From assembly GCF_003012815.1 (NCBI RefSeq), contig NZ_PXYJ01000002.1, forward strand, positions 496,001 to 560,000: a stretch of 64,000 nucleotides of DNA. Direction: 5' to 3'. A program made the translations under genes and the position numbers. The DNA is from Allosphingosinicella vermicomposti (GTDB lineage Bacteria; Pseudomonadota; Alphaproteobacteria; Sphingomonadales; Sphingomonadaceae). Position 1 is the first letter of the stretch; each line of letters opens with the position of its first letter. The notes below the pieces were generated by a model. That model saw nothing but the letters and a program-made list of their open reading frames with translations, had not been told where the DNA came from and did not search any database. Shown in pieces: positions 52,025-56,301 of the stretch.

Positions 52025-52107
52025 CGTCACCCTGAACTTGTTTCAGGGTCCATCCATCCGCCCGCGCATTGGCCGGGCATGGATGCTGAAACAAGTTCAG
52101 CATGACG
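52025..52107. repeat. inverted repeat, family C (CTGAAACAAGTTCAG), upstream of ileS
   Basis: Left GTCACCCTGAACTTGTTTCAG and right GGATGCTGAAACAAGTTCAGCATGACG in inverted orientation around a GC-rich centre. A related copy lies downstream of ileS at 55159. Confidence 0.88.
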
Positions 52108-52164
52108 ATGGGTGTAAAGCGGCGCTTTCCAATTCCCCTTCACCTCGCTAATCCCGCCTGCGAC

Positions 52165-55131
52165 ATGTCCGAAAAACCCGATTATAAGAACACCGTCTTC
52201 CTGCCGCAGACGGATTTCCCGATGAAGGCTGGCCTGGCTCAGAAAGAGCCGGCTATCCTCGCGCGCTGGTCCGAGCAGCGGCTGTACGAAAAACTCCGCG
52301 CCGCGCGGAAGGACGCCAAACGCTTCATTCTTCACGACGGCCCGCCATACGCCAATGGCGACATCCATATGGGCCATGCGATGAACAAGGTGCTGAAGGA
52401 CATCATCGTCCGGTCCCGCACCCTGATGGGCTATGACGCGCCCTATGTTCCGGGCTGGGACTGCCACGGCCTCCCCATCGAATGGAAGGTCGAGGAAGCC
52501 TATCGCAAGCAGAAGCTCGACAAGGATCAGGTGCCCAAGGCCCAGTTCCGCGCCGAATGCCGCGCTTATGCCGACAAATGGGTGGACGTGCAGAAGGCGC
52601 AATTCCAGCGCCTCGGCGTCATGGGCGAGTGGGACGACCCCTATCTCACCATGAATTACGAGGCCGAGGCCGCGATCGTCGGCGAGCTTCTGAAATTCGC
52701 CGAAAGCGGCCAGCTTTATCGCGGCGCCAAGCCTGTCATGTGGTCGCCGGTCGAAAAGACCGCTTTGGCCGAGGCCGAGGTGGAATATGAGGACATCACC
52801 TCGACCCAAATCGATGTTGGGTTCGAGATTGTTGAGAGCCCGATTGCGGAACTAGTCGGCGCCTACGCGGTAATCTGGACGACGACGCCGTGGACGATCC
52901 CGGTCAATCAAGCTTTGGCTTATGGACCGGAGGTCGATTACGTTCTGGTCGAATTAACGCAGATTCTTCAGTCGGCTGGGCCAGAAGACACCTCTGCTCT
53001 CGTTTTTGGCCGCAAGCTGCTGCTAGCTGAGCCGCTCGTTCGCGCCTTTTTTTCCCGTAAGCACATCAGTAATTTGGAAATGACTGAACACTGGCGCGGT
53101 AAAGGCTCCGAACTCGCCGGAACCCTTGCGCGCCACCCAATGCACAAGCTCGGCGGCTTCTACGCCACGCCGCGCCCCCTCCTCCCCGGCGATTTCGTCA
53201 CCACGGATGCGGGTACGGGCCTCGTCCACATGGCGCCGGATCATGGCGAGGACGACTTCCTGCTCTGCAAGGCACATGGGATCGATCCGGTTTTCGCGGT
53301 CACCGACGATGGGCGTTATCGCGAGGATTGGGCTTGGCTCGGTGGCGAGGGCAGCGTCATCAATCCCAAGTTCAATGCGTCGGGCAACAAGTCCAAGATG
53401 GAGGAAGGCCCGATCTGCCGCGACCTGCGCGAGGCGGGTGCTTTGCTCGCTGCGTCGGACGATTTCCAGCACAGCTATCCGCACAGTTGGCGCTCCAAGG
53501 CGAAGGTCATCTTCCGCTGCACGCCGCAATGGTTCATTCCGATGGATCAAGTCCCCTCTCCCGACGGGAGAGGGAGGGGCCCAGGCGCAGCCTGGGAGGG
53601 TGAGGGTGCGCCTTCATCCGATCACCCTCACCCCGGCCCTCTCCCAATGGGAGAGGGAGGTCGCGGGCATAACAGCGCCACAATGACACTCCGCGAAACA
53701 GCGCTCGGCGCGATCGAAGAAACCCGCTGGGTTCCGGCAAAGGCGCAGAACCGCATTCAGGCGATGGTCGCGGGACGGCCCGATTGGGTCATTTCCCGCC
53801 AGCGCGCCTGGGGCGTGCCGATCGCGCTTTATGTGAACCGCGAGACGGGCGACTATCTCCGCGATCCCGCCGTCAACCGGCGGATCGTGGAGGCGTTCAA
53901 GCAGAACGGGGCCGACGCCTGGTTCATGGCGCGGCATGAAGAGCTGCTCGGGCCCGATCACAATATCGCCGATTACGACATCGTCACCGACATCCTCGAT
54001 GTGTGGTTCGATAGCGGCTCGACCCACGCTTATGTAGTGGAAGCGCGTTATGGCGAAGGCACACGCGCCGACCTCTACGTCGAGGGGTCCGACCAGCATC
54101 GCGGCTGGTTCCAATCCTCGCTTCTCGAAAGCTGCGGCACGCGCGGGCGGGCGCCTTATGAAGCGGTGCTGACGCACGGCTTCGCGCTCGACCAGAATGG
54201 CCGCAAGATGTCGAAATCGATCGGCAATGTCGTCGATCCGCTCAAGATCATCGACGAAAGCGGCGCGGATATCCTTCGCATGTGGGTCGCCTCGACCGAT
54301 TATTTTGAGGATGTGCGCATCGGCAAGGAAGTGCTCGCGGGCACGTCCGACGCCTATCGCAAGCTTCGCAACACCTTCCGCTATTTGCTCGGCGCACTCG
54401 GCGATTTCGCCGACGAAGAACGCGTTGCGGCGCAGGAGATGCCGGAGCTGGAGCGTTGGGTGCTCCATCGCCTCGCATTGCTCGATGCGGAGCTGAAATC
54501 GGCGGCCGACGCCTTCGAATTCAATCGCTACACCCGCGCGATCACCAATTTCGCGAATGACGATCTCAGCGCCTTTTTCTTCGATATCCGCAAAGACAGT
54601 CTCTATTGCGACGCGCCGACATCGTTGAAGCGCCGCGCCTATCGCACGGTGCTCGACATCGTCTTCCACGCGTTGGTGCGCTGGTCCGCGCCGATCCTCT
54701 GCTTCACCGCCGAGGAAGTGTGGGCGAGCCGCTATCCGGACGCGGGCTCCATCCATCTCGAAACCTGGCCTGAGGTCGATGGTGCATGGCGCGAAGACGC
54801 GCTTGGCGAGAAATGGGATTTGCTCCGTGCGCTGCGCACACGTGTGACCGAGGCAATCGAGCCGATGCGCCGCGACAAGATCATCCGGTCGAGCCTTGAG
54901 GCCCAGGTCGGCCTGACGCTCGCCGAAGCCGATTTGCTGGCCGCCGTTCGCTCCGTGGATTTCGACGAACTTTGCATCGTGTCCGAACTGGAGACGAACG
55001 AAGGCGATAAGGATGTCATCGCGGTAGCGCGGACCGACAATGAAAAGTGCGGCCGCTGCTGGCGCCTTCTTCCGGAAGTGAAGGAAGACGGCGCCCTATG
55101 CGCTCGCTGCGACGAGGTTTTGAATGGGTAA
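52165..55131 (+). CDS. ileS: isoleucyl-tRNA synthetase carrying an in-frame palindromic insert
   Basis: A 988-residue class I synthetase. The ATG at 52165 is preferred because the earlier frame is read from a repeat. HIGH is HMGH in PYANGDIHMGHAMNK; the editing domain has WTTTPWTIPVNQ and HMAPDHGEDDF; KMSKS is in NGRKMSKSIGN. The anticodon-binding domain and a C-terminal zinc motif (CGRCWRL ... CARC) follow. Between the WFIPMD strand (Asp461) and TLRETAL (Thr508), family members have a short loop. Here about 43 residues are inserted (PSPDGRGRGPG ... HPHPGPLPMGEG), encoded by a palindromic element. The enzyme is presumably functional, since no other ileS is in view. Upstream ribF and downstream lspA complete the usual order. 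Confidence 0.96.
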   Translation: MSEKPDYKNTVFLPQTDFPMKAGLAQKEPAILARWSEQRLYEKLRAARKDAKRFILHDGPPYANGDIHMGHAMNKVLKDIIVRSRTLMGYDAPYVPGWDCHGLPIEWKVEEAYRKQKLDKDQVPKAQFRAECRAYADKWVDVQKAQFQRLGVMGEWDDPYLTMNYEAEAAIVGELLKFAESGQLYRGAKPVMWSPVEKTALAEAEVEYEDITSTQIDVGFEIVESPIAELVGAYAVIWTTTPWTIPVNQALAYGPEVDYVLVELTQILQSAGPEDTSALVFGRKLLLAEPLVRAFFSRKHISNLEMTEHWRGKGSELAGTLARHPMHKLGGFYATPRPLLPGDFVTTDAGTGLVHMAPDHGEDDFLLCKAHGIDPVFAVTDDGRYREDWAWLGGEGSVINPKFNASGNKSKMEEGPICRDLREAGALLAASDDFQHSYPHSWRSKAKVIFRCTPQWFIPMDQVPSPDGRGRGPGAAWEGEGAPSSDHPHPGPLPMGEGGRGHNSATMTLRETALGAIEETRWVPAKAQNRIQAMVAGRPDWVISRQRAWGVPIALYVNRETGDYLRDPAVNRRIVEAFKQNGADAWFMARHEELLGPDHNIADYDIVTDILDVWFDSGSTHAYVVEARYGEGTRADLYVEGSDQHRGWFQSSLLESCGTRGRAPYEAVLTHGFALDQNGRKMSKSIGNVVDPLKIIDESGADILRMWVASTDYFEDVRIGKEVLAGTSDAYRKLRNTFRYLLGALGDFADEERVAAQEMPELERWVLHRLALLDAELKSAADAFEFNRYTRAITNFANDDLSAFFFDIRKDSLYCDAPTSLKRRAYRTVLDIVFHALVRWSAPILCFTAEEVWASRYPDAGSIHLETWPEVDGAWREDALGEKWDLLRALRTRVTEAIEPMRRDKIIRSSLEAQVGLTLAEADLLAAVRSVDFDELCIVSELETNEGDKDVIAVARTDNEKCGRCWRLLPEVKEDGALCARCDEVLNG
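53552..53660. repeat. palindromic element (family E) inserted in frame in ileS
   Basis: Two copies of the hairpin CCCTCTCCC-NNN-GGGAGAGGG (53554-53574 and 53637-53657) flank inverted GGGAGGGTGAGGGTG / CACCCTCACCCC arms and a CCAGGCGCAGCCTGG hairpin. It keeps the reading frame open and adds about 36 codons. The peptide phrase HPGPLPMGEG is typical of this repeat type when translated. Confidence 0.9.
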
Positions 55132-55158
55132 TCCCCTCCCCGTCACCCCACACTTTCC

Positions 55159-55265
55159 CGTCACCCTGAACCCTTCGACTGGGCTCAGGACATGCTTGTT
55201 TCAGGGTCAATCTTCGGGCATCGCGCCGGCGTCGCCATGGATGCTGAAACAAGTTCAGCATGACG
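55159..55265. repeat. inverted repeat, family C composite, downstream of ileS
   Basis: Begins CGTCACCCTGAACCCTTCGA and ends ATGCTGAAACAAGTTCAGC-ATGACG, with a TTGTTTCAGGGTC unit inside. It shares its right half with the element at 52025 and has a piece like family D. Confidence 0.85.
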
Positions 55266-56211: not shown

Positions 56212-56301
56212 CGTCATTGCGAGGAGCGCAAGGGGGGAAGCAATCCCACCTCGCGGTCGGGTTCAGTGCCGCTGGATTGCTTCGCTCCGCTCGCAATGAC
56301 G
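56212..56301. repeat. REP-like palindrome, family A
   Basis: CGTCATTGCGAGGAGCGC and CGCTCGCAATGACG with GGATTGCTTCGC inside, between convergent DUF3035 and porin genes. Confidence 0.85.

Follow-up and report, generated by a model that had tools for sequence, protein, structure and literature searches.

Different families of palindromic repeats recur in frame at one loop of the isoleucyl-tRNA synthetase gene in Sphingomonadaceae

How can the single-copy gene of an essential enzyme carry a palindromic repeat within its reading frame, and was its entry an isolated event? Protein-coding palindromic repeats have so far been mainly a curiosity of Rickettsia and Wolbachia, where they could be blamed on reduced genomes and obligate intracellular life. 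The same process seems to act in the sphingomonads, which are mostly free-living and form a large group that includes S. alaskensis and E. litoralis. Here it concerns a single fixed position in an essential enzyme, and the element found there differs between sister species. According to the main text of a 2013 report, GTAG/CGTC REPs lie within coding genes, among them truB and tRNA synthetase genes of S. alaskensis and E. litoralis, and two recB genes of Xanthomonas have different REPs at roughly corresponding positions; by that account in-gene repeats in sphingomonads are already known as such (PMC3733652). That main text names neither the synthetase nor the site and reports no family-wide recurrence (PMC3733652). 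The recurrence at one ileS site, the switching of families between sisters and the multi-gene scale appear to be new, no report of them having been found among the open-licence papers searched.

The locus lies in a 64,000-nucleotide stretch of the Allosphingosinicella vermicomposti genome (contig NZ_PXYJ01000002.1, positions 496,001 to 560,000 of the forward strand), which is called the window below and in which positions are counted from its first letter. The ileS frame is open from 52102 to 55131 (1009 codons), with the ATG at 52165 as the likely start. The gene and its insert are made up as follows.

52165..55131, forward strand: ileS, isoleucyl-tRNA synthetase (Pfam tRNA-synt_1 and Anticodon_1, open reading frame, own-genome search, Foldseek match to IleRS 8c9f)
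53542..53685, forward strand: expanded ileS loop, residues 460-507 from the 52165 start (phmmer alignment to 8c9e, AlphaFold2 pLDDT)
53554..53657, no strand assigned: 104-bp composite palindrome of family A, in frame (inverted repeats, about 10 matches elsewhere in the genome)
53554..53574, no strand assigned: left hairpin CCCTCTCCCGACGGGAGAGGG, perfect 10-nt arms
53598..53633, no strand assigned: inner inverted repeat GGGTGAGGGTG...CACCCTCACCC, perfect 11-nt arms at 53598-53608 and 53623-53633
53637..53657, no strand assigned: right hairpin CCCTCTCCCAATGGGAGAGGG, perfect 10-nt arms
53665..53688, forward strand: right tail of the loop, GHNSATMT, which predates the present element (alignment of the loops of G000, G002, AVDCRST_MAG09 and G013)

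The original prediction placed a palindromic repeat in frame inside ileS, and this is what we find. The family A element sits between the WFIPM (QWFIPM) and LRETAL codons, the arms of its left (CCCTCTCCCG/CGGGAGAGGG, 53554-53574) and right (CCCTCTCCCA/TGGGAGAGGG, 53637-53657) hairpins are perfect, and an outer inverted repeat of 26 nt (81%) accompanies the inner one. The predicted RNA fold of the element stretch has an energy of -84 kcal/mol (z = -5.8) and was equalled by none of 200 shuffles, so that a chance palindrome is ruled out by the folding score together with the dispersed copies described below. In an Rfam scan nothing matched the insert site at the curated threshold, and what appeared below it was microRNA-like and due to chance.

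Pfam finds the catalytic and anticodon domains in the window IleRS and no domain inside the insert, the class I motifs are intact, and the frame stays open across the insert. A second intact ileS elsewhere, or an assembly artefact, would have offered trivial accounts of the locus, and neither was borne out: the own-genome search found no second ileS in the window genome (99.97% complete), where the further class I matches are valS and two ORFs that are presumably leuS and metG. The site is likewise filled in about 40 assemblies, many of them independent and some single-contig. An artefact or a pseudogene is a practically negligible explanation for a filled site that recurs in this way in a single-copy gene with intact motifs.

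In the phmmer alignment the loop of the window IleRS is 48 residues long versus 2 in the solved IleRS 8c9e. The predicted number of about 43 foreign residues was thus right in its order, except that about six of them (HNSATM) belong to an older flank common to relatives. An AlphaFold2 model from 50 aligned sequences (mean pLDDT 84, pTM 0.76) gave pLDDT values below 50 for residues 470-503 of the insert, flanked by a strand at 450-459 and a helix at 509-519, and Foldseek placed the model on IleRS 8c9f (TM 0.81/0.87) and also on 1qu2. As far as the model goes, the IleRS fold looks preserved and the insert has the appearance of a disordered loop, which we take to lie near the active site from its position just after the QWF motif. 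Because the ileS gene is conserved we infer that the enzyme tolerates the insert, as had been proposed.

A DNA search of the window genome, suggested along with the original prediction, detected family A at about 10 further places, whole or partial. The longer copies are 71-82% identical to the ileS element, and those examined are intergenic or at gene ends. Since family A is dispersed in the genome, the ileS insert is an incoming repeat and not a native loop that is palindromic by accident. A joint query with five families found at least 42 places, a lower bound in which the best candidates alone were scored; 12 of them, ileS included, are in frame within recognised genes, and about 30 lie outside; in being short, multi-copy and mostly extragenic these palindromes resemble REPs and BIMEs. 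As a separate observation, a DUF559-like ORF adjoining nrdB (contig C4, L004:1492-1983) ends in a family A element, which encodes its tail.

The entry of a dispersed palindromic repeat into a catalytic-half loop of a single-copy essential enzyme, in frame and in the manner of the Rickettsia palindromic elements (RPEs), is thereby upheld, and it is not a single isolated event: the ileS site is a recurrent landing site throughout the family, and the sister species holds another repeat family there. Among 26 genomes of the same genus the loop is expanded at this site in nearly all and the repeats differ. We then read the loci directly in 160 genomes of the family from 91 genera. With the genus and named records added, the set comprised 158 loops, which measure 8-74 residues when flanks are counted; two of the named records are duplicates of genomes in the set. 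A few loci were only partly readable and stop at contig edges, and none was seen to be excluded for a stop codon. Close relatives differ greatly in loop length and carry unrelated repeats, in place of one repeat-free loop of constant length. RNA folding showed 43 of the 158 loops to be strongly palindromic (z <= -3) and most others to be near zero; the palindromic ones come from about 20 genera, and related ileS loci were seen in Stakelama, Sphingosinicella, Altererythrobacter, Croceicoccus and uncultured Sphingomonas.

The repeats fall into family A (CCCTCTCCC/GGGAGAGGG ends, PSPLAGEG-like peptides), A2 (CCTCCCCG), B (CTCGACTTCGCTCG, peptide STSL..SSEVE), C (GAGCCTGTCGAAG, peptide RAEPVEAL..LRQAQGERS) and D (CCAGCGGAAGCTGG). 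A and A2 look related, and CCGTTCG ends are, by eye, common to B and C. Counted loosely by core sequence there are at least four families, three of which appear clearly unrelated. The stability of the predicted fold, and the strong folding of 43 loops despite unrelated sequence, could suggest that the hairpin is functional in the ileS mRNA, pausing the ribosome between the editing and catalytic halves or regulating ileS. We regard this as very unlikely: 115 of the 158 loops lack such folding, those of close relatives with empty sites included, and elements of these families are spread over the genome and occupy unrelated genes. Many relatives have an intact ileS without any such hairpin, which rules out that ileS requires it.

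Searches with the joint palindromic-loop queries in 11 further genomes gave 37-84 matches per genome, where a match to any part of the joint query counts, and in most of these genomes parts of the genome's own ileS loop were among the repeated parts. As a control, 12 long non-palindromic loops matched the ileS site alone in 10 genomes, with two weak extra matches (3 in total) in each of the other two. It is clear from this comparison, copies in the own genome against essentially single-copy controls, that the palindromic loops are not lineage-specific native loops. We also drew 192 alphaproteobacterial genomes. In those beyond the family, site-spanning matches were mostly 264 nt long with a loop of about E. 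coli length, none of the matches listed held an insertion longer than about 11 residues, and a minority gave weak or partial matches. As the loop is short in other Alphaproteobacteria, its expansion is a feature of the Sphingomonadaceae, taken in a wide, GTDB-like sense. Non-palindromic loops of 30, 35 and 40 residues (e.g. EKRWEGEGGALDP) are conserved in many relatives scattered on the tree, and some of them might be old degenerate elements. Horizontal swapping was considered for these loops and set aside, since loop identity did not clearly exceed flank identity in comparisons of which several were spoilt by unaligned indels in the flanks.

None of the 43 palindromic loops, and none of 80 other long loops, contains an in-frame stop, while the other forward frames of the 43 are interrupted in 18 (+1) and 31 (+2) and the reverse frames in 17-20 each. 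A stop-free ileS frame next to stop-rich other frames favours translation over splicing or bypassing, and the insert is accordingly read here as a probable part of the mature IleRS. Removal of the insert from the mature product, by splicing or ribosome bypassing, might draw on the inverted repeats, which bring the insert ends together, but it is scarcely credible: a self-splicing intron, intein or bypassed sequence would be free to hold stops or catalytic domains, while the palindromic loops hold no in-frame stop and the insert studied here no Pfam domain. At ileS, elements of family B are read in one frame in 7 of 7 cases per arm, and those of family C in 8 of 8 and 6 of 9, which could reflect peptide selection or shared ancestry as well as the avoidance of stops. 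The idea that the elements are unusually open in every frame was refuted, about three of six frames being open, the same as in shuffles. Selection for the peptide itself, e.g. because it protrudes from the surface and protects IleRS from a natural inhibitor or provides an additional contact, would fit the one-frame use of B and C and the long loops common in the family; still, we give it an even smaller chance than a functional mRNA hairpin, as the loop sequences are unrelated between sisters and often lost, and similar landing sites lie in unrelated proteins.

The turnover of the site can be judged from an IleRS tree built without the loop, on which at least 28 changes of repeat presence or absence and at least 21 family changes among repeat-bearing rows are needed, both being minima from a quickly built tree with gain and loss pooled. 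The nearest relative of the window genome (G000) is G002, with flanks 90-93% identical, and it carries family B at ileS versus A in G000. The tail HNSxxMTLRET is common to these two and to two more relatives (AVDCRST_MAG09 and G013), and a GHNSATMT-type right tail is also present in relatives with family B at the site. With an older tail shared by loops holding A or B, the element seems to have been replaced by one of another family inside a pre-existing loop. A second pair, G065 and G142, has flanks 94-97% identical and loops of 27 versus 74 residues. Composite loops, B plus C in G142 and B plus a remnant of A in G114, fit a layered insertion.

The ileS gene is not the only core gene concerned. 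In the window genome we found at least 12 further in-frame elements, namely two each in valS, glyS and rnr and one each in the genes of a ligase-associated DEXH helicase, SucB, ScpA, SufC, an MFS transporter and a carboxyltransferase; the second glyS element was missed by the joint query and found separately. Domain matches in these host genes span the insert or flank it on both sides. In the sister G002 both sites in valS, both in rnr and the one in the helicase gene are empty or short, and sufC, scpA and sucB hold a different element family than in G000, with a CGTC-type-looking element in sufC. Across the genus sufC has a native 14-residue stretch in nine genomes read and 42-64 residues from several families in six, and from these sequences it is evidently a second recurrent landing site. 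The glyS element is near-identical in G000 and G002 within a flanking gene that has diverged roughly 10-15%, which hints at homogenisation (gene conversion or re-insertion) rather than simple decay.

With respect to the mover, a search for the Y1/RAYT transposase (PF01797) gave no match in G000 or G002, although the family is present in 11 of the 26 genomes of the genus, and a resident RAYT was for this reason rejected. Because no Y1 transposase was found, the ileS element is not a classical RAYT-driven REP. Family A also shows no GTAG/CGTC tag; the ileS element and its copies begin, by eye, with CCCTCTCCC and end with GGGAGAGGG; the original term "REP-like" consequently applies only loosely. 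Comparisons of filled and empty sites between G000 and G002 revealed no clean target duplication.

The alternation of unrelated families at the same points of ileS, sufC, scpA and sucB between sisters makes targeted exchange the main rival, by which the sites would be hotspots at the DNA level, an existing hairpin or cruciform attracting the next element or recombination swapping the family, with permissiveness only as a filter. The near-identical glyS element across diverged flanks also speaks for it, but empty-to-filled differences occur without a palindrome in the sister (valS twice, helicase), no enzyme was found, a common target sequence is unlikely for at least four families whose ends differ, and with 12 of 42 places in genes most elements still land outside. 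On balance we think such active targeting unlikely, albeit a serious competitor. Similarly doubtful is the broader proposal that core genes have fixed exchange sites at which a process acting on palindromes (hairpin-directed insertion or recombination) swaps families without a resident RAYT; if it were true, translated repeats would continually supply essential enzymes with new protein segments.

We consider it probable instead that these are translated repeats, selfish or at least non-essential, that survive and turn over in loops indifferent to sequence, much as RPEs do. Short palindromic elements of several families would insert repeatedly throughout the genome, and nearly all insertions in genes would be lethal, the survivors being in frame, free of stops and in a loop with dispensable sequence. 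The permissive, disordered IleRS loop just past the QWF motif, occupied by a translated copy of a dispersed element, would be one landing pad, and similar loops or linkers in SufC, ScpA, SucB, ValRS, GlyRS and RNase R would be others. A pad already long and disordered would tolerate the next insertion as well as in-frame deletions, and hence turn over and switch families between sisters, the element being carried yet dispensable. Both the neutrality of the element and its mode of movement are what we infer from this pattern, and some targeting is possible given how frequently the ileS loop is filled.

By analogy, the nearest known way of working is that of the RPEs (WPE in Wolbachia), which are multi-copy palindromes of about 100-150 bp found in frame in many core genes, a synthetase subunit included, at solvent-exposed sites (PMC3767692). 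The present element has 104 bp, with about 10 further places for family A and 42 for the joint families, and in-frame elements with the frame intact occur in several unrelated core genes (ileS and at least 12 others). Orthologous genes have also been reported to carry different RPE groups at one and the same place, without a decision between a hotspot and a common origin (PMC3767692). The likeness is one of way of working; here the host is a sphingomonad, several families with different sequences are involved and a single site has been filled repeatedly across about 20 genera. GTAG/CGTC REPs share the location inside coding genes, including sphingomonad tRNA synthetases according to the main text cited above (PMC3733652), and MITEs are short repeats with inverted ends able to fuse in frame to genes (reviewed in PMC10969869), although no clean target duplication was seen for the present elements. 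Inverted repeats within translated genes are known from the mitochondria of Nematomorpha too, but there both arms encode conserved protein, while here the repeat is extra loop sequence (PMC6649704).

The ileS loop can be viewed as a natural record of the entry of repeats into working genes, in which movement, site choice and peptide neutrality are testable by short-term comparative genomics and simple genetics. For annotators it follows that peptides such as PSPLAGEG, RAEPVEAL..LRQAQGERS and STSLDTNG..SSEVE can be genuine parts of core proteins in this group.

Two further observations concern the window. The part of the ileS editing domain at 52800-53100 has a G+C content of about 52% in part versus 59-69% across most of the gene, differs from the sister species in length and sequence, and is the second most length-variable region of the gene. 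Intergenic palindromic repeats of the GTCACCCTGAA... and CGTCATTGCGAGGAGCG... types lie at 55147-55265 and 56212-56300, 3' of ileS and 3' of the gene that follows lspA.
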